Assembly (NCBI RefSeq): GCF_017304635.1
Contig: NZ_JAFKMA010000005.1
Coordinates: 62,001-126,000 of the forward strand
Direction of reading: 5' to 3'
DNA length: 64,000 nt
DNA from: Sphingomonas sp.
Lineage (GTDB): Bacteria > Pseudomonadota > Alphaproteobacteria > Sphingomonadales > Sphingomonadaceae
Shown here: positions 5,814 to 35,128 of the stretch, piece after piece
How the letters are laid out: the number at the start of each line of letters is the position of its first letter
Numbering within the stretch: position 1 is the first letter of the stretch
Notes under the pieces: model-generated
The model's database searches: none
What the model was told of the DNA's origin: nothing
Seen by the model: only the letters and a program-made list of their open reading frames with translations
Translations under genes and position numbers: made by a program

Positions 5814-5825
5814 TGCGTTAGGTTG

Positions 5826-5851
5826 GGAAACTCGCGGAAGAGCGAGTTTCC
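5826..5851. repeat. GGAAACTCGC hairpin, possible terminator
   Basis: A perfect 10-bp stem (GGAAACTCGC/GCGAGTTTCC) has a GGAAGA loop. It has the same layout (GAAAC-CGC arm, six-base loop) as the hairpin at 3454-3477. Together with 5787-5813 it fills the space between convergent genes. Confidence 0.6.
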
Positions 5852-5879
5852 GGGCGGCAGCGCGTCAGCTAAAGACTCC

Positions 5880-7061
5880 TTAAATCCCCTGCGCCGCGGC
5901 CCAGCCGCTCGCCCAGGCCCATTGGAAATTGTAGCCGCCGAGCCAGCCGGTCACGTCGACCGCCTCGCCGATCACGTGCAGGCCGGGCAAGTGCCGCGCC
6001 GACAGGTCGCGCTGGTTGAGGCCGTCGGTGGCGACGCCGCCGACCGTGACTTCGGCCTTGGCGAACCCCTCGGTGCCGTTGGGCCGGAAGCGCCAGTCGC
6101 GCAGCCGCGCCTCATGCTCGCCGAGCGCGGCATCGCGCAACGCGCCGATCATCTCGCCCCCGCCGATCCGCTCGGCCAATGTCTCGGCAAGGCGTTGCGG
6201 GAGCAATGTGGACAGTATGCGGCGCATCGGCGCGTTGGGCTGGGCGCGCTTGGCTTCGCGCAGCCAGCCGGCGGCCTGTCCGGGCAGGAAGTCGATCGCG
6301 ACCTCCTGCCCGTGCCGCCAATAGGACGACACTTGCAGGATCGCCGGACCCGATAACCCGCGATGCGTGAACAGTGCCGCCTCGGCGAACGCGGCTGTCC
6401 CGCACCGCGCGACCACCGGCACCGCGACCCCCGACAGCGAGCGGAACAGCGCCTCGTCGCCCGGCAGCGTCAGCGGGACCAGCGCCGGACGCGGCTCGAC
6501 CACCTTCAGCCCGAACTGGCGCGCGAGATCATAGGCGAAGCCGGTCGCGCCGAGCTTGGGGATCGACGGCCCGCCGGTCGCGATCACCAGTGCAGGGGCG
6601 GCATAGGTACCGCCATCGGTCGCCACGCGGAACGTACCGTCGGCGTGGCTCACGTCGCGGATCGGCTCGCCCAGTCGCAGCGTGACGCCGCCGCTGTCGC
6701 ATTCATCGAGCAGCATCCGCACGATTTGCCGCGCCGATCCATCGCAGAACAATTGGCCCAGCGTCTTCTCATGCCAGGCGATGCGGTGGCGCTCGACCAG
6801 ATCAAGGAAATCGTGCGGCGAATAGCGGCCGAGCGCCGACTTCGCGAAGTGCGGGTTGGCCGACAGATAGCGGTCGGGCGCGGCCTCCAGATTGGTGAAG
6901 TTGCACCGCCCACCGCCGGAGATCACGATCTTGGCGCCTGGTTCGGGACGGTGGTCGATGACGACGACGCGCCGCCCGCGCTGGCCGGCGACCGCCGCGC
7001 ACATCAGCCCCGCGCCGCCGGCGCCGAGCACGATCGCATCGAAGGGAGTGGCAGCGGCCAT
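5880..7061 (-). CDS. BaiN/HI0933-family NAD(P)/FAD-dependent oxidoreductase
   Basis: The start at ATG 7061 gives 393 residues, the usual length of the family, and puts the Rossmann motif at the N-terminus: DAIVLGAGGAGLMCA with GxGxxG. ATG 7076 and a far upstream ATG at 7163 are possible but add unrelated sequence. A second family marker, ISGGGRCNFTN, follows the FAD fold. Members of this family (HI0933, YhiN, BaiN) are cytoplasmic flavoproteins. Reported activities are diverse and the physiological substrate is usually unknown. The gene is divergent from the TauE-type permease, with an AT-rich inverted repeat between them. Confidence 0.88.
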   Translation of the reverse strand: MAAATPFDAIVLGAGGAGLMCAAVAGQRGRRVVVIDHRPEPGAKIVISGGGRCNFTNLEAAPDRYLSANPHFAKSALGRYSPHDFLDLVERHRIAWHEKTLGQLFCDGSARQIVRMLLDECDSGGVTLRLGEPIRDVSHADGTFRVATDGGTYAAPALVIATGGPSIPKLGATGFAYDLARQFGLKVVEPRPALVPLTLPGDEALFRSLSGVAVPVVARCGTAAFAEAALFTHRGLSGPAILQVSSYWRHGQEVAIDFLPGQAAGWLREAKRAQPNAPMRRILSTLLPQRLAETLAERIGGGEMIGALRDAALGEHEARLRDWRFRPNGTEGFAKAEVTVGGVATDGLNQRDLSARHLPGLHVIGEAVDVTGWLGGYNFQWAWASGWAAAQGI

Positions 7062-7194
7062 GCTCGTCCCTGCCATGCCCTGCCCATCCGCAAAAGCATT
7101 GTATGGCTGCTGCTGCCCGCAATGACCGTTCGGCTCGGTGCCCGGAATGGCAATTTCTTCCAACGGATCGATCGAAAGCGAAAAGATCGTGCGC

Positions 7195-7210
7195 TTTAAT
7201 TCCCATTAAA
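7195..7210. promoter_or_regulatory. Inverted repeat TTTAAT-TCCC-ATTAAA between divergent genes
   Basis: This AT-rich perfect 6+6 repeat sits in the GC-rich 241-bp gap between the flavoprotein (minus) and the TauE-type gene (plus). It could be an operator or part of a promoter. No cognate regulator is adjacent. Confidence 0.35.
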
Positions 7211-7302
7211 ACGATGGATTATTTTGCCGCCTGCCGACTAGTTTTCGGCATGCCGTCGACGCCGAATCCCTATCGATCGCTGCCGGTGCCGAAGGCGGTC
7301 CA

Positions 7303-8085
7303 ATGATCCTGTCGGTCGACCCGCTCTATGCCATTGCCGGGCTTGCGGTCGGGTTACTGGTCGGGCTGACCGGAGTCGGCGGCGGGTCGCTGATGACGCC
7401 GGTGCTGGTGCTGGCGTTCGGGTTCCATCCGGTGACGGCGGTCGGCACCGACCTGCTCTATGCCTCGGTCACCAAGGCGGCGGGGACCGCCGTGCACGGC
7501 GTCAGCGGCACGGTCGACTGGAAGATCGTCCGTCGGCTGGCGCTGGGCAGCGTGCCGGCGACCGCGCTGACCCTGCTCGGGCTCGCCTATCTCGGCCGCC
7601 ATTTCGACGGGACGCAGCACGTCGTCTCGGTCACGCTGGGCGTAGCGCTGATCCTGACCGCGCTGGCGACGATCTATCGCCGCCGCATCCTGCTTCACTT
7701 CGCGCCGCGGTTCGAGCGCGTGGTGCCGGCGCAGATCCGCCGCTGGACGATCCTGCTGGGCGCGGTGCTCGGTGTGCTGGTCTCGCTGTCGTCGGTCGGC
7801 GCGGGCGCGCTCGGCATGACGGTGCTGCTCGTCCTCTATCCGCGCCTGCCGGTCGGCCGGCTGGTCGGGACCGATATCGCGCACGCCGTGCCGCTGACGC
7901 TGATCGCCGGGCTCGGCCATTGGGCGATGGGGTCGGTGGACGGCGCGTTGCTGGTCTCGCTGCTCGTCGGGTCGATCCCGGGGATCGTGATCGGCAGCCT
8001 GATCTCGAGCCGCGTCTCCGATCGGTTCCTGCAACCGGTGCTGGCCGGCACGCTCCTCGTCGTCGGGGGACGGCTCCTCCTGTGA
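7303..8085 (+). CDS. TauE/SafE (TSUP) family permease
   Basis: This 260-residue polytopic membrane protein has the two-repeat layout of TSUP transporters. The first repeat starts with GLLVGLTGVGGGSLMTP and the second with a related GVLVSLSSVGAGALGMT. These glycine-rich motifs line the substrate path in the family. TSUP members export or import sulfite, sulfoacetate, thiosulfate or other small organic anions. Nothing next to it fixes the substrate. The ATG at 7303 directly follows a non-coding stretch and starts a hydrophobic helix after about ten residues. Confidence 0.88.
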   Translation: MILSVDPLYAIAGLAVGLLVGLTGVGGGSLMTPVLVLAFGFHPVTAVGTDLLYASVTKAAGTAVHGVSGTVDWKIVRRLALGSVPATALTLLGLAYLGRHFDGTQHVVSVTLGVALILTALATIYRRRILLHFAPRFERVVPAQIRRWTILLGAVLGVLVSLSSVGAGALGMTVLLVLYPRLPVGRLVGTDIAHAVPLTLIAGLGHWAMGSVDGALLVSLLVGSIPGIVIGSLISSRVSDRFLQPVLAGTLLVVGGRLLL

Positions 8086-21869: not shown

Positions 21870-22256
21870 TCAGGGCCGCCCGACGAGGGCGCGAATCTCC
21901 GCCGACAGCTGGAGCGGGTCGAACGGCTTCAGGATCACGCCGGCGGCACCGTGCGCGAGATATTGCGCGACATCCGCCTCGCGTCCCTTCGCCGTCATGA
22001 ACAGCACCGGCGTGTCCGCCATCCCCGGCAGCGCGCGCAGCGCCGCCAGCGTCGCGAGGCCGTCCATTTCCGGCATCATCACATCGAGCAGCAGGACGTC
22101 GGGCCGCCACTCGCCGTCGCCGAGCAAGGCGACCGCGTCGCTGCCCGACGCCACCGCGCGAACGGTGAAGCTCGGGTCGAGCCCGAGCGCCATCTCCACG
22201 ATCGTGCGGATGTCGGGATCGTCGTCGACGTACAGGAGCGAAAGCGGCGCCGTCAC
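21870..22256 (-). CDS. Single-domain response regulator
   Basis: A stand-alone receiver of 128 residues starts at GTG 22256, overlapping the kinase stop (GTGA). It shows DDD at 11-13, the phosphoacceptor Asp in VLLLDVMMPEMDG, the conserved Thr in VLFMTAKG and Lys in LKPFDP. With no output domain, it is likely to pass phosphate on or act by protein contact, as CheY-like proteins do. The much longer frame through the kinase gene is a shadow. It forms one operon with the hybrid kinase and the LuxR-type regulator. Confidence 0.9.
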   Translation of the reverse strand: MTAPLSLLYVDDDPDIRTIVEMALGLDPSFTVRAVASGSDAVALLGDGEWRPDVLLLDVMMPEMDGLATLAALRALPGMADTPVLFMTAKGREADVAQYLAHGAAGVILKPFDPLQLSAEIRALVGRP

Positions 22257-24754
22257 GACGGCGGGTTCCGTTGCTCGAGGACACGCCGCACCGTCGCGCG
22301 CAGGTCGGGGAGCGAGCCGCGCGACTTGACCAGCACGGCATCGACCTGCCCCGCCGCCGGGCCGCTGACGTCGTGCGCGGAAAAGATGATCGTCGGTATC
22401 GCGAGGCCGTGTCTGTCGATCAGCATCGGCAGCAGGTCGAGCCCCGACGATCCCTCCGCCAGGTGGAGGTCCATGATCGCCAGGTCGGGCGATTCGTGTT
22501 CGAGGATCGCGCGCGCACTCGCCAGATCGCGCACCTTGACGATCCGCGCGTCCGGACTGAGCGCCGCCTCGACCACGTCGAGCATGTCCTGATCGTCGTC
22601 GAGGTGCAGGATGGTCGGCTGCGCGCCCAGCCGCTCGATGGTCTTGGCGAGCGCGGCGGCGAGGCGCGTGGGATCGACCGGCTTCTCGATCCAGTCGACG
22701 ATGTCGAACGGCACCGGCTCGCCGGCACCATCGCGAGTCATTCCCGACACGATGATGATCGGTAGCGACGGGACGCCGTCGCTGGCGTAGAGCGAATGCG
22801 CGAACGCGAGCCCGTTCTCGTCGGGCAGACGCAGATCGAGCAGCAAGGCGGCGTAGCGCTGCTCGGCGAGCGCGGTGCGTGCGCGTGCGGCGGTTCCGAC
22901 GCAATCCGCGGCATGGCCGATCGCCGCCACCATCTGGCGCAGCGTCTCGGCCGTGTCGGCGTCGTCCTCGACGATCAGGATGCGGGGGGCTTGGTCGCGA
23001 TCCGGCGACGACGCGTGATCGCGGATCAGGTCGAGCTGGAACGCGAAGCGCGTGCCGACCGGGCGATCCTCGAACCAGATGCGTCCATAATGGCGCCCGA
23101 TGATCTCGCGCGAGATGGCGAGGCCCAGGCCGGTGCCGACCCCCTGCTCCCCCGCGGCGCGTTCGAACCGGCCGAAGATGCGGTCGCGGAACTCCGCGGG
23201 CAGGCCGGGGCCGTGATCGTCGATCGTGACGACCGCGCGGCCGTCGGCATTGTCGACCGTCAGCCCGATCTCGACCGCGCTGCCGGCCGGCGACACGCGG
23301 ACGGCGTTCGACGCCAGGTTGGCGATCACCTGCAACAGCCGCTCGGCATCGCCCATCACGCGCACCGGATCGTCGGGCACGCGGCACAGGATCGGGACGT
23401 CGGCGGCGTCCGCCGATCCGCGGATGCCCTCGCCCGCGCGCGTCACGACGTCGCGCAGGTCGATCGGCTGGCGTTCGATCTGCAATTTGCCCGATTGCAT
23501 CCGGTCGATGTCGAGCATGTCGTTGATGAGGCGGATCAGCCGGCGCGAATTGTTCTCGGCGATCTCGATCAGCCGCTGGGCCGGTGCCGGAATCTTGCCC
23601 GCCGACCCGGCCCGCAGTAGCCCCAGCGCGCCGACCACCGACGTCAGCGGCGTGCGCAGTTCGTGGCTGACGGTCGACATCAGCTCGTCCTTCACCCGCT
23701 CGATCCGCTTGCGCTCCGAAATGTCGCGGGCGGAGGCGACGATGTGACAGCCATCGGGCTGCGGCATCACGCCGAGCGCGATGTCGACCGGAATCGTGTG
23801 GCCGTCCTTGTGCTTGATCGTGCGGTCGGGCAGCCAGGCATTGGCCAGCTTGCCGTCGACCAGCCCGATCCGTTCGTGAAACGTGACGGTCCGGTCGAGC
23901 AGGTCCATCAGCACCGACACGTCGCGGCGCTCGACCTCCTCCGGCCGATAGCCGAGCAGCGCCGCCGCCGCCGGATTGATCGATTCGATCGTGCCGCTGG
24001 GGTTGAGGATCGTGATGGCGTCGGTCGTGCTGTCGAGGATCGAGCGATTGCGCTCGGCGATGCTGTGGGCGGCCAGCCGCGCGCGGTAGCGGCCATAGCT
24101 CTCCAGCCAGATCAGCACTGCGCTGCCCAGCGCCAGCAGCCCCGCCACCGCGATCCCGACCCAGATCCAGAAGCGGTCGCCGGCGACGTGGCGGGCGTAC
24201 GCCGCCACCCGCGCGTCGCGGTCGCGCTGGGCGATCGCCAGCATGTCCGTCGATACGCCGCGCATCGCGTCCATCAGATGCTTGCCGCGGCCTTCCTGGA
24301 CACCCTCGATCGCGGCATCGAGCCCGCGGTCGCGACGGTCGGCGATAACTTGGTCCATCTCCGCAAACTTCAGCTCCGCCAGGCCGCGCAGCCGCGCGAG
24401 CAACGCCGCCTGGGCGGGTTCGCCGCGTAATTCCCGGGCGAGCTGGTCGAAGGTCCGCATCACCGCGAGCCGCGCCGGCACGTACGGATCGAGGAATTGC
24501 GGATCGCCGGTCAGGACGTAGCCGCGCTGGCTCGATTCGGCATCGGCGATCCGCGCGATCAGCGTACTCGCTTCCGTGCTGCGGTCGAAGGCGGCCCGCG
24601 CGTCGGCGCGCATCGCCTCGGTCCGCGCATTCTCCGTCCCCAGCCAGGCCGACGCCGCGATCAGGATCGCCGGGACGATCAGCGCGAGCAGGATGAAGCG
24701 CGTCAGGCTGGGCGGCGTCGGGGTGCCGTCGTGACGATTGGCGACAGCGCTCAT
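22253..24754 (-). CDS. Hybrid histidine kinase (CHASE3-PAS-HisKA-HATPase-REC-REC)
   Basis: This 833-residue membrane kinase has helices at about 18-37 and 196-217. A CHASE3-like periplasmic domain lies between them, with the pattern ESSQRGYVLTGD. A PAS domain follows (about 236-345), then HisKA with His364 in SHELRTPL and an HATPase ending near 575. Two receivers follow at about 591-705 (Asp640) and 713-830 (Asp762). The second lacks the usual Lys-Pro context, having VLVKSRGSLPD. The start overlaps the stop of the LuxR-type regulator (ATGA). The two C-terminal receivers imply a multistep relay or phosphate sink. Confidence 0.92.
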   Translation of the reverse strand: MSAVANRHDGTPTPPSLTRFILLALIVPAILIAASAWLGTENARTEAMRADARAAFDRSTEASTLIARIADAESSQRGYVLTGDPQFLDPYVPARLAVMRTFDQLARELRGEPAQAALLARLRGLAELKFAEMDQVIADRRDRGLDAAIEGVQEGRGKHLMDAMRGVSTDMLAIAQRDRDARVAAYARHVAGDRFWIWVGIAVAGLLALGSAVLIWLESYGRYRARLAAHSIAERNRSILDSTTDAITILNPSGTIESINPAAAALLGYRPEEVERRDVSVLMDLLDRTVTFHERIGLVDGKLANAWLPDRTIKHKDGHTIPVDIALGVMPQPDGCHIVASARDISERKRIERVKDELMSTVSHELRTPLTSVVGALGLLRAGSAGKIPAPAQRLIEIAENNSRRLIRLINDMLDIDRMQSGKLQIERQPIDLRDVVTRAGEGIRGSADAADVPILCRVPDDPVRVMGDAERLLQVIANLASNAVRVSPAGSAVEIGLTVDNADGRAVVTIDDHGPGLPAEFRDRIFGRFERAAGEQGVGTGLGLAISREIIGRHYGRIWFEDRPVGTRFAFQLDLIRDHASSPDRDQAPRILIVEDDADTAETLRQMVAAIGHAADCVGTAARARTALAEQRYAALLLDLRLPDENGLAFAHSLYASDGVPSLPIIIVSGMTRDGAGEPVPFDIVDWIEKPVDPTRLAAALAKTIERLGAQPTILHLDDDQDMLDVVEAALSPDARIVKVRDLASARAILEHESPDLAIMDLHLAEGSSGLDLLPMLIDRHGLAIPTIIFSAHDVSGPAAGQVDAVLVKSRGSLPDLRATVRRVLEQRNPPS

Positions 24755-25413
24755 GGCTGGGCGACGTCGCCGAGCAGCGGCTGCATCGCGAGCAGGGCCT
24801 GCGCGCGGTTGGTCACGCCGAGCTTGCGGAAGATCGCGGTCATGTGCGCCTTGACCGTCGCTTCGGTGATGTCGAGGTCGCCCGCGATCTGCTTGTTGAG
24901 CCGCCCGTCCGCCAGTGCCAGCAGCACCTTCAGCTGCGCGCCCGACAGCGTCGCGACGCGGTCGCGCGCCGATTTCGCGGCGCCGCCGGCCGCCGTTTCG
25001 GACGGAAAGATCACGCGTCCCTCGGCAATCTCGCGGATCGATGTCGCCAACGTATCGAGCGGCCGCGTCTTGGACAGGAAGCCGGCCGCCCCCAGCGCGC
25101 GCGCCGCGTCATGGATCACCGGGTCGCGATGCGCCGACACGACGACGATCGGTGTTCGGCCGAGCAGGTGCTGGAGGCGCAGGAATCCTGAAAACCCGCG
25201 CGCGTCGGGCAGCACGAAATCGAGAATGACGAGGCGGTAGCCGGTGCGGCGCTGCGCGATCGCGGCCTCTGCCTCGCCGATCGAACCGGCATTGTCGATC
25301 CCGATCCCGGGCAATCCGGCACGCACCGCCAGCGCAAGTCCCTCGCGCGTCAGCGGATGGTCATCGGCGATCAGGACATGCCGTCCGGTCGCGGTCACGC
25401 TGGGTTCCAGCAC
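24751..25413 (-). CDS. LuxR/NarL-family response regulator
   Basis: This 220-residue protein has a receiver (about 11-128; acidic pair DD at 17-18, phosphoacceptor Asp65 in VILDFVLP) and a C-terminal helix-turn-helix. The latter has the pattern LADGRLNKQIAGDLDITEATVKAHMTAIFRKLGV, typical of the NarL/FixJ group. It is first in an operon with the hybrid kinase and single receiver and is probably the transcriptional output. It is divergent from a receiver-HPt gene, with 103 bases between them. Confidence 0.92.
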   Translation of the reverse strand: MLEPSVTATGRHVLIADDHPLTREGLALAVRAGLPGIGIDNAGSIGEAEAAIAQRRTGYRLVILDFVLPDARGFSGFLRLQHLLGRTPIVVVSAHRDPVIHDAARALGAAGFLSKTRPLDTLATSIREIAEGRVIFPSETAAGGAAKSARDRVATLSGAQLKVLLALADGRLNKQIAGDLDITEATVKAHMTAIFRKLGVTNRAQALLAMQPLLGDVAQP

Positions 25414-25516
25414 GTATCCAGAAGACGTCCCCTGAGTTTATGCTATCATTGCCCCCGAATTACCCAAAATTGTCCAGATTTTTCTGCCTCATTTTGGTGC
25501 TAAACGGAAGCTAAGT

Positions 25517-26164
25517 TTGCGTAATCCCATCGTTCTTGTCGCTGACGACGAGCCGGCGACTCGGTTGTTCGCATCCCGCGTCCTGCAAAAGGCGGGCTGG
25601 CATGTTGTCGAGGCGGCGGACGGAGAGGCTGCGGTCGCGCTGGCGATGTGCGAGCCGGTCGATCTGGTCGTCATGGACATCGACATGCCGCGCCTGGATG
25701 GCTGCGCGGCGACGGCGCAGATTCGCGCGGCGGGCGGTGCCATCGCGAGCGTGCCGATCCTGGCTTACTCGCTCGTCTGTCTCGACGATGGCGCCCTCGC
25801 CGAGCGTGGGTTCGACGGTCGTTTGCCCAAGCCCTGCGCGCCCGAAGCTTTGCTGGCTGCGGTCTCGGCCTGGCATCCGTCTGTGGGGCTGGCCGACACG
25901 CAGCGGCTCAAGGCCGTCTTCGGCGAGGACGAGTTGACGCCGCTAATCGCGCGGTTCCGCGATCAACTGGTCGAGGCACTGGCGGCGCTCGATACCGGAG
26001 ACACAGGGATGGCGCATCGTATCGCCGGGGTCGCCGGGACACTCGGGTTCGCGCAGGTCAGTGAGAGCTGGTTGCGGCTATCCGAGGGCGACGGCGCCGC
26101 GCGCGACGATGCGCGCCGGCTTGCCCGGCTGGCCATCGCGGCGATCGACCGCGACGCGATCTGA
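25517..26164 (+). CDS. Receiver-HPt phosphotransfer protein
   Basis: Read from TTG 25517 (GGAAG upstream), the 215-residue product has a receiver at about 5-118 (Asp54 in VVMDIDMP, Lys105 in LPKPC). A C-terminal helical domain contains His167 in AHRIAGVAGTLGF, matching the HPt motif HxxxGxxxxxG. It lies divergent from the hybrid-kinase operon, which has receivers but no HPt domain, and could supply the missing relay step. The receiver is slightly unusual, having YSLVC where Thr/Ser-Ala is expected. A non-ATG start is assumed because no ATG lies nearby. Confidence 0.82.
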   Translation: MRNPIVLVADDEPATRLFASRVLQKAGWHVVEAADGEAAVALAMCEPVDLVVMDIDMPRLDGCAATAQIRAAGGAIASVPILAYSLVCLDDGALAERGFDGRLPKPCAPEALLAAVSAWHPSVGLADTQRLKAVFGEDELTPLIARFRDQLVEALAALDTGDTGMAHRIAGVAGTLGFAQVSESWLRLSEGDGAARDDARRLARLAIAAIDRDAI

Positions 26165-26345
26165 AGGGCCGGGAATCGCCGCCAATCGCCCTCGGCCGGG
26201 GCCGTCGTGCGGCTGGTCAAGCGACTAACCTAAATTGGTTTCGGCATTATACTATGGTCGTAAAGCGTGGCTCCCGGTGGTCGTCGGTAGCAACCGCTTA
26301 ACCTAGAAGCCCATCCCCCATCCGCACGCGATTTTTTCGGCGGGG

Positions 26346-27305
26346 ATGAGGGTGACGACAGTCGTTCGCAGCGTTGGGAACAGGGCACGGGGCGGCGTTG
26401 CGATGGCAGCGCTCGCGCTGGCCATGGTCGCGCCTGCGCACGCCGCGACACGCGCCGGAACCGCGATCGCCAACACCGCGACGCTGACCGTCGGCAACGG
26501 GGCCGACCGGCAATCGCTGCCGTCGAACACGGTCACGCTGACCACTGCCGAACTGCTCGACGTGACGGTCGCCGCCGACCGGCCGACCATCGCCGCGACC
26601 GGTGCCGAGATCGCGGTCGGCTATGTCGTCGTCAACACCGGCAATGGCGCCGAGGATTTCGTGCTGACGATCGCGAGCGACCGGTCGGCGGTGACGGTGG
26701 CACGTGTCGCGATCGATAGCGACGGCAACGGCAGCTACGACGCCGCGAGCGACCGGTCGCTGGCGCCGGGCGCCCCGCTATCGCTCACGCCGGGCCAGTC
26801 GGTCCGCATATTCGTGCTGGTCGATGGCGGCCAGGTCACCGCCGCCACGCATATTTCCGTCACGGCCACCGCCCATACGGGCAGCGGCGTGGCGGGCACC
26901 ACGTTCGCGGGCGCAGGCGATCAGGGTGGCGACGCCGTCGTCGGTCGGACCGGTGGCACCGCGACCGCCACGACGCTGCTGACGATTTCCGCCGACCAGC
27001 CCAGCCTGACCAAGTCGCAGACGGTGTTCGCCCCCGACGGCAGTACGCGCGCGGTTCGCGGCGCGATCGTCACCTACACGCTGGTCGCCAGCTTCCCAAC
27101 CGCGACCGGCGGGGCGGCGATCGACGATCCGGTCCCTGCCGGCACCACCTACGTCCCCGGCAGCATCACGCTCGACGGCCGCGCGCTCAGCGATGCGGCC
27201 GATGGCGACGCTGCCAGCGTCGATGGCGTCACCATCCACGTCGCGCTCGGTGACGTCGCCGCCGCGAGCACCCGCACCGTTCAGTTCAGCGTCAAGATCC
27301 AATGA
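26346..27305 (+). CDS. Exported DUF11/Ig-like protein (surface cluster gene 1)
   Basis: This 319-residue protein has a long signal peptide ending APAHAA. The N-terminal module contains GTAIANTATLTVGNG and SNTVTLTTAE. A middle region has a calcium-loop-like DSDGNGSYDAASD, and the C-terminal DUF11-type Ig domain has a PAGTTYVPGSITLDG motif. The N-terminal and DxDGNGxYD segments are clearly related to those of the gene at 27819. It ends four bases before the next gene's first possible ATG. The start ATG has only a close GGCGGGG, and a GTG six bases later is possible. Its role is unknown but fits a secreted or surface structural protein. Confidence 0.75.
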   Translation: MRVTTVVRSVGNRARGGVAMAALALAMVAPAHAATRAGTAIANTATLTVGNGADRQSLPSNTVTLTTAELLDVTVAADRPTIAATGAEIAVGYVVVNTGNGAEDFVLTIASDRSAVTVARVAIDSDGNGSYDAASDRSLAPGAPLSLTPGQSVRIFVLVDGGQVTAATHISVTATAHTGSGVAGTTFAGAGDQGGDAVVGRTGGTATATTLLTISADQPSLTKSQTVFAPDGSTRAVRGAIVTYTLVASFPTATGGAAIDDPVPAGTTYVPGSITLDGRALSDAADGDAASVDGVTIHVALGDVAAASTRTVQFSVKIQ

Positions 27306-27316
27306 GGAGTCGTTCC

Positions 27317-27787
27317 ATGTTCAAACCGTTCCCCCTTGCGATCGTCGCCGCGGCGGCGGTCTCCACCGCCGCGATCGCCGCCGGGCCGCTCCAGGTCACG
27401 TCGAAGATCTTGGCTGAGCATCGCGCGCGTGCTGCCGACGGCACCACCAGCGAGACGTTGGTCGCGGCCGCCAAGGTCGTGCCCGGTACGCGCGTCGTCT
27501 TCGTGCTCGAATATCGCAACACCGGCCGCCAGCCGCTCGCGAACATCGTGTTCGACAATCCGGTGCCACGCGGGATCGCCTATCGCGGACCAGCGCCCAA
27601 TTCGCCCGCGCCGGAGGTTTCGGTCGACGGCAAGACCTATGGCGCGCTCGCTGCGCTCAGCGTGCGCACGCCCGCCGGCGCACGTCCCGCCGGCCCCGAC
27701 GACGTGACGCACGTCCGCTGGCGCCTCGCGCGCCCGCTCGCGCCCGGCGCGCAGGGCCAGTTCGCGTTCCAAGCCGTCCTGAAGTGA
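27317..27787 (+). CDS. Small exported DUF11-type protein (surface cluster gene 2)
   Basis: The chosen start is ATG 27317, preceded by GAGGAG at 27304-27309. ATG 27302, which overlaps the upstream stop, is the alternative. The 156-residue product has a signal peptide ending AIAAG. It carries a single Ig-like domain with the DUF11 pattern VVFVLEYRNTGRQPLANIVFDNPVPRG. It contains no cysteine, barrel or enzyme motif. Position between two larger DUF11 proteins suggests an adaptor or subunit of the same assembly. Confidence 0.75.
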   Translation: MFKPFPLAIVAAAAVSTAAIAAGPLQVTSKILAEHRARAADGTTSETLVAAAKVVPGTRVVFVLEYRNTGRQPLANIVFDNPVPRGIAYRGPAPNSPAPEVSVDGKTYGALAALSVRTPAGARPAGPDDVTHVRWRLARPLAPGAQGQFAFQAVLK

Positions 27788-27818
27788 ATCCGATCATCCT
27801 ATCCGAGGAGTAATTCGC

Positions 27819-28916
27819 ATGACCGTCAACAGGGTTAGACTGCTGCTGCTGTCGGGAACGGCTGCCGTAGCGAGCATCGGTACCGCGCACGCCCAGACCG
27901 CGCCGTCGGGCACGGTCGCCGGTACCACGATCAGCAACACCGCGTCGGTGACCTACACCGTCAACGGCACCGCGCAGACGACCAACTCGACGACCGCGAG
28001 CTTCGTGGTCGACCGCAAGGTCAACCTGACCGTCGTCAACGACCAGGCCAATGCCTCGACCAAGGTCAATCTGGGCCAGACCGCCGCAGTCACCCGGTTC
28101 AAGGTGACCAACAACACCAACGGGACGCAGGATTTCCTGCTGAACGCGATCCAGGCTGGAATCGTCGGCGGGCTGATCGGCACGATCACCGGCACCGACG
28201 ACTTCACGATGAGCAACCTGAAGGTCTATGTCGATAAGAACGGCAACGGCGTCTACGATCCCGGCGTCGACACCGCGACCTATATCGACGAGCTCGCGCC
28301 CGACCAGTCGGTCGAGGTGTTCATCGTCGGTGACGTGCCGGCGAGCGGGAACATCAACCTGCACAATGTCGCGTTGCAGGTCATCACCGCCGCCGGCGGC
28401 GCACCGGGCCAGCAGGGCGCGGCGCTGGCGGAGACGGTCAACCTCAACAATGCCGACATGAGCGTCGACGTCGTGTTCGCCGACAACGACAACGATGGGC
28501 TCGGCTTCGACACCGCGCGCAACGGCCAGGGTTGGGCCTATGCCACGTACGAGATCGGCGCGCGCAACGTCGCGCTGACGGTGACCAAGTCCGCGCTCGT
28601 GCTGTCGGACGGGGTCAACCTCACCAATCCGAAGTCATTGCCGGGTGCCGTCGTGCAATATTGCCTGGTCGCGAACAACGCGACGCTGCTGACGGCGGCG
28701 AACAACGTCGTGCTGACCGACGTGATCCCGAGCAACACGACCTATGTCGCGGGATCAACCCAGGTCGGACTGCCCGGTGGCACCTGTACGCTCGCCGGCG
28801 CGGTGCAGGACGATGCGACGGTGTTCAACGCGACCACCAAGACGATCACCACCGCTATCGGGACGCTAGCGGGCGGGGCGTCGACCGCGGTCTCGTTCCG
28901 GGTGACGATCAACTAG
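27819..28916 (+). CDS. Exported DUF11/Ig-like protein (surface cluster gene 3)
   Basis: This 365-residue protein has a signal peptide (ending TAHAQ) and a GAGGAG ribosome site. The N-terminal module has GTTISNTASVTYTVNG. A DKNGNGVYDPGVD loop and an ADNDNDGLGFD segment could bind calcium. The C-terminal DUF11 domain has PGAVVQYCLVANN and PSNTTYVAGSTQ. It shares its order of modules with gene 1, so the two are probably paralogues. Only two cysteines are visible, both in the C-terminal domain. It is abundant in Asn and Thr and may form a repeated surface subunit. Confidence 0.75.
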   Translation: MTVNRVRLLLLSGTAAVASIGTAHAQTAPSGTVAGTTISNTASVTYTVNGTAQTTNSTTASFVVDRKVNLTVVNDQANASTKVNLGQTAAVTRFKVTNNTNGTQDFLLNAIQAGIVGGLIGTITGTDDFTMSNLKVYVDKNGNGVYDPGVDTATYIDELAPDQSVEVFIVGDVPASGNINLHNVALQVITAAGGAPGQQGAALAETVNLNNADMSVDVVFADNDNDGLGFDTARNGQGWAYATYEIGARNVALTVTKSALVLSDGVNLTNPKSLPGAVVQYCLVANNATLLTAANNVVLTDVIPSNTTYVAGSTQVGLPGGTCTLAGAVQDDATVFNATTKTITTAIGTLAGGASTAVSFRVTIN

Positions 28917-28956
28917 CGCGCCGCCGCTCCTGCTTTCTCGAAAGGACCGATCCGCA

Positions 28957-28983
28957 CTCCGGCGCGCCACGCGCGCGCCGGAG
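28957..28983 (+). promoter_or_regulatory. Stem-loop covering the ribosome site of the 1662-residue gene
   Basis: A perfect 10-bp stem (CTCCGGCGCG/CGCGCCGGAG) has a 7-base loop and lies in the 79-bp gap before the large gene. The only plausible ribosome site, GGAG at 28980-28983, is inside its right arm. The hairpin could lower translation or protect the upstream mRNA. Confidence 0.55.
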
Positions 28984-28995
28984 CACGCCCCAGCC

Positions 28996-31900
28996 ATGAC
29001 TCGCGTTCGTCGCCTCGTCCTCCTGGCCGCCCTGATCGGGCTGGCGACCGCCGTTCCCGCGGCGGCGCAGACGAATACGCACGTCACCAACACGGCCACG
29101 CTCAGCTTCGATGCGTCGAGCGGCCGCCAGACGATTTCCTCGAACACCGTCGCGCTCGACGTCGATCGCACGAAGCTCCCCACGCGGTTGAGCTTCCGCC
29201 TGCCGCCGGTCGGCTACACCATGACCGGCATGGCGTGTCAGACCTCGCCGACGACCCAATTCACGCCCGCCCCGATCGACGCCGATACGCTGGCCAAGGC
29301 GCCGCCGATCCGGACGCTCGACGACAACCAGCCGATCATCCTCGTGCTGGAGAATCCGGGCGGCAACCATAATCCGACCAAGCGCGAGACCGCGTGGATC
29401 AACGTTTCGACCGAAAGCTTCCATGGCACGCTGCCGCTCTTGGAGACCGGGCCGGACACCGGTGTGTTCGCCGGCGGCGTGCCGGAAGGCGGCCGGACTG
29501 GCGACATTGCGCCATGCGATCCCACGCTGGTGCGCGGCGAGCATCTGCAGCTATCCTTCGTCGAGGACGATTACAGCCTGGGATCGAGCGCGGCGATCCT
29601 GATCGACCCGGCCGGCTACGTGTTCGATTCGCAGACGGGAGCGCTGATCGACGGCGCACGGGTCAGCCTGGTCGATGCGAACGACCAGCCCGCGACCGTG
29701 TTCGGCGACGACGGCGTCAGCCGCTATCCGGCGAGCGTCGTCACCGGCGGCAGCGTCACCGACGCGAGCGGTCGCGTGTACCAGTTCAGCCAAGGCAATT
29801 ACCGCTTCCCGTTCGTCGCGGCGGGGCAATACCACTTGAAGTTCGATCCGCCGGCGAATTATTCCGCGCCCTCGACTCGCTCGCGCGACGATCTCGCGCA
29901 ACTGCGCGACCCCGGCGGTCGTGTCTATCTCATCAACGACGCCTCGTTCGGCGGTGTCTTCACGCTATCGGACCCGCGGCCGTTCTACGCCGATGTGCCG
30001 TTCGATCGGGCGGGCGACACCAGCCTGCTGCTGACCAAGACCGCCTCGGTGCGCGACGCGTCGCCGGGTGATTTCGTGCAATATCGCGTGACCGTCACCA
30101 ATCGCGGGGCGGCGAGCGCGAACAATGTGCATCTGACCGACATCCTCCCGGTCGGTTTGCGTTACGAACGCGGGTCGACGCGCGGGGCAAGCGAGCCGAC
30201 CGTGTCGGACGACGGCCGCAACCTGGCTTTCGCGGCACCCATGGTGCCGAAAGGCAGCTCGACCGATATAACCTATGTGGTTTCCGTGACGCCAGGCGCG
30301 CCAACCGGAGAGGCCGTCAATCGCGTGCTCGCCTCCGGCCCCGGCGGCGCCACCAGCAACGAAGCGGCGGCGGCGGTGCGGATCGCGGCGTTGCTGTTCA
30401 CCGACGGTTTCACCGTGATCGGACGCATTACCGAGGGCGATTGCCACAACCCCGACAGCGGGCGCCGGGGCATCGCCGGCATCCGCGTCGTGCTGGAGGA
30501 CGGCACCTTCGTCGTCACCGACAAGAACGGCTATTACCACGTCGAGGGCGTCCGCCCCGGCCGTCACGTCGTCCAGATCGACACCGGCAGCATCCCCGCC
30601 TCCTACGCGCCCGTGACCTGCGATCGCGACACGCGCAGCGCCGGCAGCGCGATCTCGCGCTTCGTCGAGGGTGAGGGCGGGGTGCTCAAGCGCGTCGATT
30701 TCCAGCTGCGCCCGACCGGCAAGGTTGCCACGAAGGCGACCGCCCTGCCCATCACGCCGCTCGGCGACGCGCAGGCCGCGGGCGATCGCGACTGGTTCGC
30801 GGGTCAGGCGTCGGGCACCGAGATCCTATTCCCGACCCCCGATTACAACCCCCGCGCGCCCGTCACGCGGATCGTGGTCAAGCACGCCCCGGGCCAGCGC
30901 ATCGCGCTGCGCGTGAACGGCGCGGCGGTCGATCCGCTGACCTTCGACACGACCGACACCAACGATGCCAGGACGATCGCGCTGTCACGCTGGACCGGTA
31001 TCGCGCTGAGGGACGGCGACAATGCGATCGAGGCGCGCGTGCTCGATGCGAAGGGCGCGACCGTCGCGACGCTCACTCGCACCGTCCACGCCGCGACTGC
31101 CGGCACCCGCGCGACGCTGGTGCCGCAACTCAGCCGGCTGGTCGCCGACGGCCTGACCCAGCCGCTGGTCGCGGTGCGCGTGACCGACGCCGCCGGCCGC
31201 CCGGTCCGCGCGGGTAGCCTCGTCCCGTTCCATGTCGACCAGCCCTATGGCGCGGCGATCGACGCCGAACTCGAACAGGGCAACCAGCTCACCGGGCGCG
31301 ATCGTGCCCAGACCATTGCGCGGGTCGTCGGCGACGACGGCCTGGCGTTCATCGCGCTCCAGCCGACGATGCAGGCAGGCAACGTCCACATCGTCGTCAC
31401 CCTCGCCGACGCGAAGGCCGAGCGCACCAGCGACATCCGCGCCTGGCTGGCGAGCGCGGCGCGCGACTGGATCGTGGTCGGGTTCGGTGCCGGCACGATC
31501 GGCTACGACACACTGCACAGCCGTACGACGGCGCTGCCCCCGGGGATGAAGCAGGGCGTCGTCACCGATGGCCAGCTCGCTTTTTACGCCAAGGGCCGGA
31601 TCAAGGGATCGTGGCTGCTGACGCTCGCCTATGACAGCGATCGCCCATATGACCGCACGCGCGGGCTGCTCGGCACGATCGATCCCGACCGCTACTACAC
31701 CGTCTATGGCGACGGCTCGCGCCAGGGCTACGATGCGGCATCGGCGCGCAAGCTCTACATCCGGCTGGAACGGCGTGATTTCTACGCGCTGTTCGGCGAT
31801 TTCGAGAGCGGGCTGACCGATACGCAGCTGACGCGGTTCAGTCGCACGCTGAACGGCATGAAGGCCGAATATCACGGCCGCACCGTCAGCTTCACCGCTT

Positions 31901-33984
31901 TCGCCGCGAAGACCGACCAACTCTATGCGCGCGACGAGATCCAGGGCAACGGCCTCAGCGGTCCGTATCGCCTGACCGGCCGCGACATCGTGCCGAACAG
32001 CGACAAGGTGCGGATCGAGGTGCGCGACCGGCTGCGCCCCGACCTGGTGCTGACCTCGACGCAACTGACGCGGCATATCGACTACGATATCGATCCGGTT
32101 GCGGGCACATTGCGCTTCCGCGAGCCCGTGCTCGGCCGCGACGCTGACCTCAATCCGGTGTTCATCGTCGTGGATTACGAGACCGACGGCACCGCTCGCC
32201 GCCTGGTCGCCGGCGCGCGCGCCGTGGCGAAGCTGGCGGACGGCAAGGTGCAGGTCGGCGCCGGGGTGCTGCACGACGAGACCGTGGGCAATGCAACCGT
32301 CATCGGCGCGGACATCCGGGTGAAGCCGACCGCCAATACCGAAGTGCGCGGCGAAGTCGCGACCGGGGGACGCTACGGCGTCGGCACCGGCCGGGCGTGG
32401 CTGGCCGAGGTCGAGCATCACGACCGCTCGGTCGACGTGCTGGCCTATGCGCGCAGCCAAGACGCGACCTTCGGGCTCGGCCAGCAGAATCTGGTCGAGG
32501 CGGGCACGCGCAAGCTGGGCGTCGACGGCCGCGTCGCGCTGACCGACACGTTGTCGCTGACCGCGACCGCCTGGCATTCGACACAGCTCGACGGACCCGG
32601 CGCGCGGACCGCCGCCGACCTCCGCCTCGAATATCGCCGCGAGGGCAGCACGCTGTTCGTCGGCGGCCAGATCGCCGACGACACCGGGATCGACGGCGGC
32701 GCGCGCCACTCCCGCCTGTTGACGATCGGCGGTAGCCAGGCGCTGCTCGACGGCAAACTGGTGCTGTCGGGCCAGGCGCAGGTCGCGCCGGGCGGCAGCG
32801 GCGATCGCGCCAGCGTCGATCTCCCCGCGCGCCAGCAACTCAACGCCGCGCTGACCGTCGCCAAGGGCATTCGCCTGCTCGGCGGGTACGAGATCGCGCA
32901 AGGGACCGACTTCACGACCCGGACCGCGCGGATCGGCTTCGACGTCGCGCCCTGGGCCGGCGCCAAGCTGATGTCGACGATGAACCGTCAGGCGATCGGC
33001 GAGAATGGCGAGCGGGCCTACGCGCAATATGGGATGAGCCAGTCGCTACCGCTCGGCCGGCACTGGACGATCGACGCGACCCTCGACGCCAGCACGACGC
33101 TCACCGGGCACATCCCGGCGGGCGCGTTCGTCAATGCCTTCACCACCACCGCCGCCGGCTCCGTCGCGGGCGCGTACCAGAACGACGGCGATTACGTCGC
33201 GGTTACCGGCGGGGCGGCGTATCGGGCGGAGCGCTGGTCGTGGAACGGCCGCCTCGAATACCGGCATTCGGACCAGAGCAATCGCTGGGGCGTGACGACC
33301 GACGTCCTGCGCTCGCTGGGGCAGGGGCGGACGTTCGCCGCGAGCCTGCGTTATTACGACATGACCGACCGGAATGGCGCGACGGCCGTGTCGCTCGCCG
33401 CCGACGCCGCGCTGGCGCTGCGGCCGCAGGACAGCCGCTGGTCGGTGCTCGAACGGCTGCAACTGCGCCGCGACCGCGCCGATGCCGGGTTCACCGGCAC
33501 CAACCCGCTCGGCGTGGCGACGGGGAACGGCGCGTTCCAGGCGACGCTGCGGCTCATCAACAACGTTGCCGTCAATTACCGCAGCGGGGCGGAAGGCGAC
33601 GCGCACGGGTTCGAGGCGACGGTCTATTACGGATCGAAATGGGTGCAGGGCAGCTTCGGCGGCGACGATTATACCGGCTATGTCGATGCGATCGGGTTCG
33701 AACTGCGCCAGGATGTCGGCCGCCGGTTCGATATCGGCGTGCAGGGGTCGGTGCAGCACGCCTGGACCAGTGGTGTCGTCGATTACAGCGTCGGGCCGTC
33801 GATCGGCGCGTCGCCCGCGACGAACCTCTGGGTCACGGCGGGTTACAATGCGGCGGGCTATCGCGATCGCGACTTCGAGGGCGATCGCTACACAAGGTCC
33901 GGGCCCTACGTCACGATGCGGCTGAAGTTCGACCAGTTCTCGCTGCGTGGTGCAGCGCAGGCAGTGCTGGGGAGGGGGCGATGA
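28996..33984 (+). CDS. Large exported protein: Ig/DUF11 modules plus C-terminal outer-membrane barrel
   Basis: This 1662-residue protein has a signal peptide (ending AAAQ) and an N-terminal module like genes 1 and 3 (HVTNTATLSFDASSG...SNTV). A carboxypeptidase-regulatory-like segment lies at about 205-300 and a DUF11 domain at about 345-460. A second regulatory/SdrD-like fold follows at about 475-540 (GRITEGDC...VTDKNGYYHVEGVRPG), then Ig-like parts. From about 828 to the end there are alternating beta strands typical of an outer-membrane barrel, including a conserved-looking YALFGDFESGLTDTQL segment. It has no TonB box or plug. It may anchor or export the small DUF11 proteins. The ribosome site is weak and lies in a hairpin. 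Confidence 0.78.
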   Translation: MTRVRRLVLLAALIGLATAVPAAAQTNTHVTNTATLSFDASSGRQTISSNTVALDVDRTKLPTRLSFRLPPVGYTMTGMACQTSPTTQFTPAPIDADTLAKAPPIRTLDDNQPIILVLENPGGNHNPTKRETAWINVSTESFHGTLPLLETGPDTGVFAGGVPEGGRTGDIAPCDPTLVRGEHLQLSFVEDDYSLGSSAAILIDPAGYVFDSQTGALIDGARVSLVDANDQPATVFGDDGVSRYPASVVTGGSVTDASGRVYQFSQGNYRFPFVAAGQYHLKFDPPANYSAPSTRSRDDLAQLRDPGGRVYLINDASFGGVFTLSDPRPFYADVPFDRAGDTSLLLTKTASVRDASPGDFVQYRVTVTNRGAASANNVHLTDILPVGLRYERGSTRGASEPTVSDDGRNLAFAAPMVPKGSSTDITYVVSVTPGAPTGEAVNRVLASGPGGATSNEAAAAVRIAALLFTDGFTVIGRITEGDCHNPDSGRRGIAGIRVVLEDGTFVVTDKNGYYHVEGVRPGRHVVQIDTGSIPASYAPVTCDRDTRSAGSAISRFVEGEGGVLKRVDFQLRPTGKVATKATALPITPLGDAQAAGDRDWFAGQASGTEILFPTPDYNPRAPVTRIVVKHAPGQRIALRVNGAAVDPLTFDTTDTNDARTIALSRWTGIALRDGDNAIEARVLDAKGATVATLTRTVHAATAGTRATLVPQLSRLVADGLTQPLVAVRVTDAAGRPVRAGSLVPFHVDQPYGAAIDAELEQGNQLTGRDRAQTIARVVGDDGLAFIALQPTMQAGNVHIVVTLADAKAERTSDIRAWLASAARDWIVVGFGAGTIGYDTLHSRTTALPPGMKQGVVTDGQLAFYAKGRIKGSWLLTLAYDSDRPYDRTRGLLGTIDPDRYYTVYGDGSRQGYDAASARKLYIRLERRDFYALFGDFESGLTDTQLTRFSRTLNGMKAEYHGRTVSFTAFAAKTDQLYARDEIQGNGLSGPYRLTGRDIVPNSDKVRIEVRDRLRPDLVLTSTQLTRHIDYDIDPVAGTLRFREPVLGRDADLNPVFIVVDYETDGTARRLVAGARAVAKLADGKVQVGAGVLHDETVGNATVIGADIRVKPTANTEVRGEVATGGRYGVGTGRAWLAEVEHHDRSVDVLAYARSQDATFGLGQQNLVEAGTRKLGVDGRVALTDTLSLTATAWHSTQLDGPGARTAADLRLEYRREGSTLFVGGQIADDTGIDGGARHSRLLTIGGSQALLDGKLVLSGQAQVAPGGSGDRASVDLPARQQLNAALTVAKGIRLLGGYEIAQGTDFTTRTARIGFDVAPWAGAKLMSTMNRQAIGENGERAYAQYGMSQSLPLGRHWTIDATLDASTTLTGHIPAGAFVNAFTTTAAGSVAGAYQNDGDYVAVTGGAAYRAERWSWNGRLEYRHSDQSNRWGVTTDVLRSLGQGRTFAASLRYYDMTDRNGATAVSLAADAALALRPQDSRWSVLERLQLRRDRADAGFTGTNPLGVATGNGAFQATLRLINNVAVNYRSGAEGDAHGFEATVYYGSKWVQGSFGGDDYTGYVDAIGFELRQDVGRRFDIGVQGSVQHAWTSGVVDYSVGPSIGASPATNLWVTAGYNAAGYRDRDFEGDRYTRSGPYVTMRLKFDQFSLRGAAQAVLGRGR

Positions 33985-34499
33985 GGCGCACGATGCTCGT
34001 CCTTGCCGCTGTCCTCCAGCCGACGCTGGCGGGGGCGACCGACCTGACCGTCACCAAGACCGCGACCGTGGTCAACGATCCCGTCGGTTCGGTCGCGCCC
34101 AAGTCGCTGCCGGGGGCAGAGGTCGACTATACGGTGCTGTTCACCAACCCGCTCGGCAATCTGGGCCAGCCGGTGCGCAACATCACGATCACCGACACCC
34201 TGCCGGTAAACGTCATCCTGCGCGTCAGCGATATCGCGAGCGCCGGCAAGGGGCCGATCGAGTTCCTCGACGGCAGCGTGCTCGGGATCGGGGGCAGCGG
34301 CCTGACCTGCACCTTCGTGTCGCTCGCCAGCACCAGCGACTGTGTCGATTTCTCGACCGACGGTGCGACCTGGACCTACGTGCCGGTCCCCGATGCCGCG
34401 GGCTACGACGCCAACGTCCGCGCGATCCGGGTGCGGCCGGCGACCACCTTCAACACGTCGGGCTCGTTCCAGCTCCGGTACCGCGTGAGGATCAAGTGA
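33981..34499 (+). CDS. Small exported DUF11-type protein (surface cluster gene 5)
   Basis: The start is ATG 33981, overlapping the stop of the large barrel gene (ATGA), with GGAGGGGGCG immediately upstream. The frame continues back inside the large gene only as a shadow. The 172-residue product has a signal peptide ending AGAT and one DUF11-type domain. This opens with DLTVTKTATVVNDPVGS, followed by PGAEVDYTVLFTNP and NITITDTLPVN. Two cysteines could form a disulfide. Tight coupling to the barrel protein suggests the two work as a pair. Confidence 0.78.
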   Translation: MRRTMLVLAAVLQPTLAGATDLTVTKTATVVNDPVGSVAPKSLPGAEVDYTVLFTNPLGNLGQPVRNITITDTLPVNVILRVSDIASAGKGPIEFLDGSVLGIGGSGLTCTFVSLASTSDCVDFSTDGATWTYVPVPDAAGYDANVRAIRVRPATTFNTSGSFQLRYRVRIK

Positions 34500-34516
34500 C
34501 GGACAGGGAGCGCACC

Positions 34517-35128
34517 ATGGCGAGTAGAGCCGAAGACACGCTGAACGATCGTCGCGACGGCCCCCGGACGCGTAGCGTGCTGGCGCTGGGCAAGATCGTC
34601 CATGCCGGGCGCGAGCATATCGCGATCGTCCGCGACATCGCGTCGGGCGGGCTCAAGATCGAGATGATCGATCCGCCCGAGCCGGGCAGCTACGTCATCG
34701 TCGAAATGCTGGGGCTCAATCCGACGCCAGCGCGAGTCGCCTGGCGGCGCGATCGCCAAGCGGGTCTCGCCTTTTCGATGCCGCAGGAGGTCGAACGGAT
34801 GTGCCGGCGCGGGCGCGACGAATCCGGGACGGCCGCGCGTGGACCGCGCTTCACGATCGCGGCGCGCGCGACGCTCCGCGTCGATGGCCGGGCGGTGCCG
34901 ATCGACGTCGTCAACATCAGCGCCGGTGGCGCCCGGCTGCGCGGGCTTGTCGGCGTCGCTGCCAACCTGCCGGCGTCGCTCGAACTGCGGCGCGGGAAAG
35001 GAGCCTGGTCGGGCTATATTCGCTGGCTCGACGGCGCGGATGCCGGGTTCAGCTTCACCCCGCCGCTCGACTTCCGTACGTTGCTCGACACGGTGCAGAG
35101 TTCGAGCGTGCCGATCGGCAGGTCGTGA
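34517..35128 (+). CDS. Tandem PilZ-domain protein
   Basis: This 203-residue cytoplasmic protein has two PilZ-like domains. The first (about 12-95) has RRDGPRTR and RDIASGGLKIEM, in which the usual Ser of DxSxxG is Ala. The second (about 108-200) has GPRFTIAARATL and VVNISAGGARLRG, matching NxSxxG. PilZ domains bind c-di-GMP through the Arg pair and this loop. The second looks more likely to bind, while the first may be degenerate. It lies 17 bases after the DUF11 cluster on the same strand, so c-di-GMP control of the surface assembly is plausible but unproven. The start follows AGGGAGCG. Confidence 0.82.
   Translation: MASRAEDTLNDRRDGPRTRSVLALGKIVHAGREHIAIVRDIASGGLKIEMIDPPEPGSYVIVEMLGLNPTPARVAWRRDRQAGLAFSMPQEVERMCRRGRDESGTAARGPRFTIAARATLRVDGRAVPIDVVNISAGGARLRGLVGVAANLPASLELRRGKGAWSGYIRWLDGADAGFSFTPPLDFRTLLDTVQSSSVPIGRS

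Follow-up and report, generated by a model that had tools for sequence, protein, structure and literature searches.

A Sphingomonas gene cluster of complete and truncated DUF11 (CLIPPER) domains, consistent with a donor-strand surface fibre on a predicted barrel protein

A cluster of five exported DUF11-type proteins

We analyzed a five-gene cluster, whose products we propose to assemble into a surface fibre, in a 64,000-nucleotide stretch of Sphingomonas sp. DNA (contig NZ_JAFKMA010000005.1, positions 62,001 to 126,000; hereafter the window). Positions below are those of the window unless a locus is named, and all genes and features from P1 to the PilZ gene described below lie on its + strand. 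In order, the genes encode P1 (26346-27305, 319 residues), P2 (27302-27787, 161 residues), P3 (27819-28916, 365 residues), a large protein termed BIG (28996-33984, 1662 residues), and P5 (33981-34499, 172 residues). The original prediction of five consecutive, tightly spaced genes for exported DUF11-type proteins is borne out by the reading frames, the DUF11 profiles, and signal peptides that appear plausible by eye in all five products. It had noted one ATGA overlap; the overlap exists, and there are two of them, at P1/P2 (27302-27305) and BIG/P5 (33981-33984), the remaining intergenic gaps being 31 nucleotides (P2-P3) and 79 nucleotides (P3-BIG). Relatives were collected in a scan of a genome collection that returned 416 stretches encoding a BIG relative, and the counts given over 80 loci refer to the best 80 of these 416.

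DUF11 (PF01345) has been renamed CLIPPER and is an immunoglobulin (Ig)-like domain that a Lys-Asn isopeptide bond crosslinks to itself; in the crystal structure 9IFR, from an Acinetobacter fibrillar adhesin, the bond joins Lys715 to Asn806, and Asp748 is the presumed catalyst (PMC12617251). BIG contains one complete domain of this kind (30013-30393, residues 340-466), in which Pfam DUF11 gives a full match over residues 344-455 (43.8 bits, cutoff 24.6). K348 and N442 align with residues 715 and 806 of 9IFR, the positions proven in the crystal, and both lie within the one domain. K348, D382, and N442 are each found in 78 of 80 aligned rows, the other two rows being gaps.

P1, P2, and P3 end before the last strand

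Taken alone, P1, P2, P3, and P5 are under the Pfam DUF11 cutoff or unlisted. With TIGR01451, a model of the DUF11 repeat (cutoff 24), P3 passes at 30.6 bits and P2, P1, and P5 fall just under the cutoff (22.6, 20.3, and 20.0 bits). All four match BIG's own DUF11 domain with hhalign probabilities of 96.4-98.3% (96.8% for P2), and P1 and P3 are 35% identical across their length. A complete CLIPPER in one chain is thus present in BIG and not in P1 or P3 according to Pfam, nor in P1, P2, or P3 according to hhalign.

The C-terminal domain of P1 (26985-27302, residues 214-319) and that of P3 (28560-28913, residues 248-365), here called acceptors, match the Pfam DUF11 profile only up to position 84 of 114, and in hhalign comparisons with the complete CLIPPER of BIG, P1, P2, and P3 cover columns 1-93 of 127. 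Because these profile matches end early, the strand that carries the Asn is missing from the C-terminal DUF11 domain of the three proteins. No residues follow the truncation point in any aligned row of the 80-locus set (76 of 76 for P1, 78 of 78 for P2, 80 of 80 for P3, and 27 of 27 for P5; P5 matches below 80 bits, among them a neighbour of BIG in locus L099, were dropped). The view that the small proteins are independent soluble modules, held in the original prediction, does not stand, since P1, P2, and P3 by profile, and P5 by eye, end in an Ig-like DUF11 domain short of its last strand.

The residues corresponding to the other half of the CLIPPER bond are retained in most of these domains. 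K223 and D261 of P1 are each present in 76 of 76 rows, and K257 and D301 of P3 in 80 of 80; the P3 acceptor also has a conserved pair of cysteines, C282 and C323. For K26 of P5, 25 of the 27 rows have Lys and two have Arg; for D72, 19 have Asp and 8 have Glu. D85 of P2 is found in 37 of 78 rows.

A common N-terminal module

Right after the signal peptide, P1, P3, and BIG have a common module of 34-36 residues with the pattern xIxNTAxxx...SNTV..., here called the donor. It spans residues 35-70 of P1 (26448-26555, ...IANTATL...SNTV...), residues 32-67 of P3 (27912-28019, ...ISNTASV...), and residues 26-61 of BIG (29071-29178, ...VTNTATL...SNTV...). The three modules are homologous (hhalign E values from 5e-11 to 1e-16; 8e-15 and 1e-16 for P1 with P3 and with BIG), and their Asn is almost invariant: N43 of P1 in 75 of 76 rows with one gap, N40 of P3 in 79 of 80, and N32 of BIG in 78 of 80 with two gaps and in every row of a smaller 21-row alignment. 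The same module precedes one set of domains in P1 and P3 and different ones in BIG.

P1 and P3 therefore share one layout, with signal peptide, donor, middle domain, and truncated acceptor, whereas P2 and P5 consist of an acceptor-type domain only, no donor module being visible in them by eye. In BIG, the donor is followed by several more domains, including the complete CLIPPER and an SdrD_B-like domain (30454-30606, residues 487-537; Pfam 34.2 bits, cutoff 29.7), and by the C-terminal barrel described below; none of its domains was recognized as a truncated DUF11. A donor-only BIG, P1 and P3 with donor plus acceptor, and acceptor-only P2 and P5 make up a set that, if the donors do complete the acceptors, only joining in trans would satisfy.

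Conservation of the cluster

P1, P2, P3, and BIG occur together, complete and in this order, in 73 of the 80 loci, which is more than chance would give; counted gene by gene, P1 is found in 75 loci, P2 in 77, P3 in 79, and BIG in 79. The small genes thus accompany BIG in its relatives and, a barrel being predicted as well (see below), neither outcome named in advance as refuting the original prediction was obtained. Its idea of a dedicated barrel protein, inherited together with exported subunits of its own, is supported. Of the seven incomplete loci, three are at contig ends (L048, L101, and L119, with BIG cut in L101 and running into the contig end without a closed frame in L119), L116 has no P2, and L049, L052, and L091, which include two Sphingobium, have no P1. 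P5 adjoins BIG in 26 of the 80 loci, the weaker neighbour in L099 not being counted, and a regular-expression scan for more acceptor genes near BIG gave candidates only in L062, L084, L099, and L114. Two loci have variant arrangements: L102 carries two P3-type genes in tandem (5698-7904), as expected for a chain subunit, and BIG of L090 (7896-12958) is split over separate frames.

Most of the named relatives belong to Sphingomonas or its kin, and the best-matching BIG segments are 41-71% identical among relatives. In drawn sets of genomes, each including the one under study, a BIG match was obtained for 43 of 119 in the family, with 6 of these weak, and for 8 of 190 in the class; a profile search of the phylum set matched 51 of 299, often only in part. 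That genome (3.18 Mb) has a single BIG match. A second, weak DUF11 match in it (14.0 bits) was not considered further, as it lies in a 1912-residue protein with, by eye, the look of an alpha-2-macroglobulin.

Profile and model tests of the donor as the missing strand

In a restoration test, donor segments were appended to acceptors and the resulting DUF11 scores were compared with those given by shuffled or scrambled donors. Since a profile made from BIG's CLIPPER could not prove a donor match, the test was run with the independent Pfam profile and also in L139, a distant relative. The gain is clear in L139 and weak in the window. In L139, the 448-residue acceptor protein rises from 33.4 to 50.2 bits with the donor of the 792-residue protein, compared with 36.0 and 39.7 bits for two shuffles. 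The acceptor of the 792-residue protein, which alone is already above the DUF11 cutoff at 48.6 bits, reaches 64.3 bits with the donor of the 740-residue protein and 68.7 bits with its own, compared with 50.3, 51.9, and 55.0 bits for three shuffles of the 740-residue protein's donor. With a donor, coverage extends from 84 to 110-112 of the 114 profile positions.

In the window, the Pfam DUF11 score of the P3 acceptor changes from 21.2 bits to 22.5 (P3 donor), 23.7 (P1 donor), and 25.2 (BIG donor), and six scrambles of the BIG donor give 20.1, 20.9, 19.8, 19.7, 21.3, and 22.3 bits. The P1 acceptor goes from 16.6 to 25.7 bits with the P3 donor; scrambling the BIG donor once and the P3 donor five times gave a single score, 23.4 bits, the other five scrambles returning no DUF11 row. 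The DUF7927 score of P1 increases from 15.0 to 20.6 bits with the P1 donor and 17.6 with the BIG donor, scrambles giving 15.4 and 17.1.

In locus L047, one frame leads from the P3 acceptor through the stop into the BIG N-terminus. An AlphaFold2 model of this 208-residue combination of P3 acceptor and BIG donor, based on 29 of 35 rows after near-duplicates were dropped, has a mean predicted local distance difference test (pLDDT) value of 72.5 and a predicted template modeling (pTM) score of 0.62. The pLDDT of the acceptor is 86-90 over residues 11-70, 62-66 over residues 71-90, and 87-89 over residues 91-120, the linker is at 39-58, and the donor, at 70-79, is folded as two strands. Foldseek ranks Gram-positive pilins first for this model and 9IFR ninth, with an alignment of 211 columns (E 7e-5, template modeling (TM) score 0.69 by target length, root-mean-square deviation 5.3). 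An alignment of this length cannot be confined to the acceptor, which has only about 118 residues, and has to extend past the linker to the donor.

The predicted barrel of BIG

The C-terminal barrel of BIG that had been read from the sequence is also predicted by AlphaFold2, at residues 919-1643 (31750-33924). The model of residues 575-1662 was built from 46 sequences (45 of 77 loci plus the window, leaving out near-duplicates and L103) and has a mean pLDDT of 71.9 and a pTM of 0.59; it contains 35 strands of at least 7 residues between residues 919 and 1643, 29 of them from residue 1054 onward. Eight Foldseek matches in the PDB have E below 1e-6, of which seven are outer-membrane proteins (SlpA/SDBC and LptD, and one titled "membrane protein") and one is apolipoprotein B. 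By title, about 44 of the 50 matches listed are outer-membrane barrels, including SprA, BtuB, and FimD. TM-scores by query are only 0.07-0.22 among these 50, indicating that the BIG barrel has no close solved relative.

At the sequence level, no outer-membrane-barrel, autotransporter, or two-partner family appears among the Pfam matches of BIG up to E = 1, and a profile of the 46 BIG C-termini, searched against the PDB to E = 10, matched neither a SprA chain nor any other barrel. A kinship with SprA, suspected by eye, is therefore unsupported by sequence, and it is weak by structure (Foldseek ranks 13 and 27, TM-scores by query 0.20 and 0.22).

Distant operons and candidate tip domains

By eye, the same logic of donors and acceptors is found in L134, L135, L137, L138, and L139. 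In L139 (6442-16712), the BIG homolog is split into two genes, for a 740-residue protein with the donor and a 1432-residue barrel-type protein, and these are preceded by the genes for the 448-residue acceptor-only and the 792-residue donor-plus-acceptor proteins; the gene order could be the order of the chain. L134, from another class of the phylum, has right after BIG an acceptor-type C-terminus fused to an Ice_binding domain (606-1817; PF11999, 2.1e-60), and L135 has an acceptor-only protein with a P_proprotein match (1.8e-6).

Spore Coat U domains are of the chaperone-usher type. Stand-alone fusions of such a domain with a P5-like protein are encoded 0.5-5.5 kb from BIG in L080, L083, L104, L110, and L114, with an SCPU match above the cutoff in four of the five, and no usher operon was seen by eye in L080, L083, L110, or L114. 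L084 has a P5-like match near BIG as well.

Surroundings of the cluster

A gene for a PilZ-domain protein (34538-35128, ATG at 34538; Pfam PilZ 7.9e-12) begins 38 nucleotides downstream of P5 and may encode a regulator on the same transcript. PilZ homologs stand at the end of the cluster in 21 of the 80 loci, in 5 of which they start 3 nucleotides before it ends. On the other side, the window encodes a hybrid CHASE3 histidine kinase, a LuxR-type regulator, and a response-regulator protein with a weak Hpt match (22253-26164); homologs of the three occur in 21, 25, and 15 of the 80 loci, on either side of the cluster. These regulatory neighbours may point to regulated adhesion. A consensus scan of 26000-34900 found no sigma-70-type promoter, a negative that carries little weight.

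Discussion

The truncated C-terminal DUF11 domains and the matching N-terminal strands point to linkage by donor strands and not to loose surface subunits. We propose, with a probability of roughly 0.6, that the cluster encodes a chaperone-free, donor-strand surface fibre of split CLIPPER domains, probably locked by isopeptide bonds, anchored by BIG, and ending in acceptor-only proteins at the tip. Of the components of this proposal, strand complementation in trans is the one that we hold with high confidence; covalent linkage in P1, P3, and BIG is favoured with rather less. P1 and P3, each with an N-terminal donor and an unfinished C-terminal CLIPPER, would join head to tail into an extracellular chain. 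BIG would form the base of the fibre, because it has a donor, no detected truncated DUF11, and a barrel through which the chain could be tethered. P5, with an acceptor only, would occupy the distal tip, in keeping with the adhesin-like N-terminal domain that acceptor-only proteins bear in two distant relatives, while P2, an acceptor lacking the reactive Lys, may be a non-covalent cap or an assembly chaperone. Where the Lys and Asp of an acceptor meet the Asn of a donor, the CLIPPER bond would form between two proteins, as a natural tag and catcher, and would lock the chain without a sortase, usher, or chaperone.

Several observations weigh against this proposal. The hhalign match of P5 reaches column 127, so that the truncation of P5 is judged from its C-terminal residues by eye only. 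Aligned by hhalign with the tail of BIG's CLIPPER, the donors of the window family give no significant match and do not exceed a set of 92 null windows. The P1 and BIG donors align at columns 96-127 and 98-127 with scores of 10.0 and 9.0, and the P3 donor scores 9.6 at columns 3-77, compared with 17.1 for the best null window and 13.4 for the tenth. With the BIG-CLIPPER profile, the real score is equalled by 2-8 of 200 shuffles for the P1 and P3 donors and by 65-71 of 200 when the BIG donor is shuffled, the P2 and P5 acceptors show no gain, and some of 89 other segments of these proteins perform as well as the donors; on P3, the segments BIG 945 and BIG 670 reach 39.8 and 38.8, compared with 40.7, 38.4, and 33.3 for the donors of P1, P3, and BIG. 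In the Pfam test, the gain of P3 with its own donor is barely above that of the scrambles, the best BIG-donor scramble being at 22.3 bits, and the P1 acceptor with the P1 or BIG donor returns no DUF11 row. The L047 prediction is the sole model of an acceptor with a donor. Other points concern the bond itself: D382 of BIG aligns one residue beyond the Asp748 named for 9IFR; P2 has no conserved Lys, its position 34 being mostly Ser and its position 35 variable, with Lys in 19 rows out of 78; by eye, the P5-like proteins fused to Spore Coat U domains lack the acceptor Lys; and, also by eye, Ser replaces the donor Asn in BIG of L137 and in a 340-residue protein of L135 (16046-17068), a possible non-covalent variant. 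The Ser donors and the Lys-less fusions indicate that covalency is not universal.

Such losses, together with the missing Lys of P2, would fit a swapped fibre that is non-covalent in practice, as chaperone-usher or TasA fibres are, the Lys, Asp, and Asn being relics or structural residues. We consider this unlikely, given that Lys and Asp are invariant in P1 and P3 and that the donor Asn is kept in nearly every row of P1, P3, and BIG even though the best BIG segments are only moderately identical.

An alternative that we judge quite unlikely takes BIG to be mainly an exporter, whose wide barrel secretes the small DUF11 proteins as free or surface-acting products, the likeness of the strands serving as a recognition signal. 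The 35 predicted strands do suggest a very wide barrel, and the weak Foldseek matches include barrels of secretion and assembly (SprA, LptD, and FimD). None of the 50 matches listed is close, however, and although export is compatible with anchoring, these data lend transport no support.

Because P1 and P3 contain both halves, each could instead close in cis, its N-terminal strand completing its own C-terminal domain as a circularly permuted CLIPPER, with the monomers held near BIG through other contacts. This reading is improbable: it fails for the set as a whole, in which BIG has a donor and no detected truncated DUF11 and P2 and P5 have acceptor-type domains without a donor, and acceptor-only and donor-only genes recur, by eye, in the distant operons. 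The weak homology between window-family donors and the DUF11 tail would also allow for no swapping at all, with an N-terminal motif that merely opens an ordinary Ig domain as its first strand and a DUF11 variant that is naturally shorter, which is very improbable in view of the 16-20 bits that L139 N-terminal segments add at the missing DUF11 positions (2-6 bits for shuffles) and of the occurrence of one module ahead of different domains in P1/P3 and BIG.

The proposed donor-strand fibre has likenesses among known systems. Chaperone-usher pili, such as type 1 and the archaic Csu pili, have incomplete Ig-like subunits, an N-terminal donor strand, a donor-less tip, and an outer-membrane base. 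The proposed fibre is alike in these features and differs in its CLIPPER fold, in the C-terminal barrel on a donor-bearing protein, in its likely covalent joints, and in the lack of a chaperone or usher match in the five proteins. In agreement with the original prediction, the Pfam and NCBIfam matches of the five proteins include no chaperone-usher family, whether PapD-type chaperone or usher, and no autotransporter family; not every other gene of the window was scanned, and no genome-wide search for chaperones or ushers was made. Type V pili use donor-strand exchange outside the chaperone-usher pathway, with another fold, and we know of no Lys-Asn lock between the subunits of type V pili or TasA fibres. 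SpyTag/SpyCatcher is an engineered tag/catcher pair.

TasA fibres of Bacillus (PMC9674648) exchange donor strands outside the chaperone-usher pathway, as proposed here, with another fold. In engineered CnaB splits (PMC5487036), an isopeptide domain is divided and its strand reacts in trans, as would be the case here, but those splits are man-made whereas the present ones are conserved operon genes. The archaeal thread of Sulfolobus acidocaldarius (Saci_0406) combines a donor strand with a proposed intermolecular isopeptide bond and has a donor-only cap protein (PMC9715654). It shares these three features with the proposed fibre and differs in joining an N-terminal amine (Asp24) to Asn57, from subunit n to n+2, in its type I pilin-like fold, and in having no outer-membrane barrel (PMC9715654); it indicates that donor-strand linkage can coexist with an isopeptide bond proposed between subunits, by other chemistry. 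The CLIPPER of 9IFR (PMC12617251) is alike in fold, in the Lys and Asn positions, and in belonging to exported surface-type proteins, but it is a whole domain with an intramolecular bond, whereas P1, P2, and P3 are cut before the Asn strand, which is seemingly supplied by the N-terminus of another protein.

Two further leads were set aside. One, a link to type 11 secretion, was suggested by a paper that matched "DUF11", and the text of that paper, as far as available, deals mostly with DUF1194 and names DUF11 once as a co-occurring domain; the other, a preprint on F-ENA in which both terms, DUF11 and donor strand, occur, names DUF11, in the portion available, merely as a domain of an anchor protein. 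Among the papers listed in searches of the open-access literature (bioRxiv was outside it, as were most subscription papers), no description of such a fibre system was found.

A bolder form of the proposal, which we advance tentatively and at somewhat less than even odds, is that of a natural Gram-negative tag/catcher polymer, in which an isopeptide domain is cut between genes and the folding of each joint also welds it. The result would be a chaperone-free and sortase-free covalent adhesive fibre with interchangeable tips, on a new, very wide barrel that may take part in export of its own chain across the outer membrane.

If the proposal is true, the cluster would represent a class of donor-strand fibres that assemble without the known chaperone-usher or sortase machinery and whose joints seal themselves covalently. 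The proposal would account for the truncated look of some DUF11 proteins, provide natural counterparts of engineered tag/catcher pairs, and assign a function to a conserved sphingomonad operon of hitherto obscure role.

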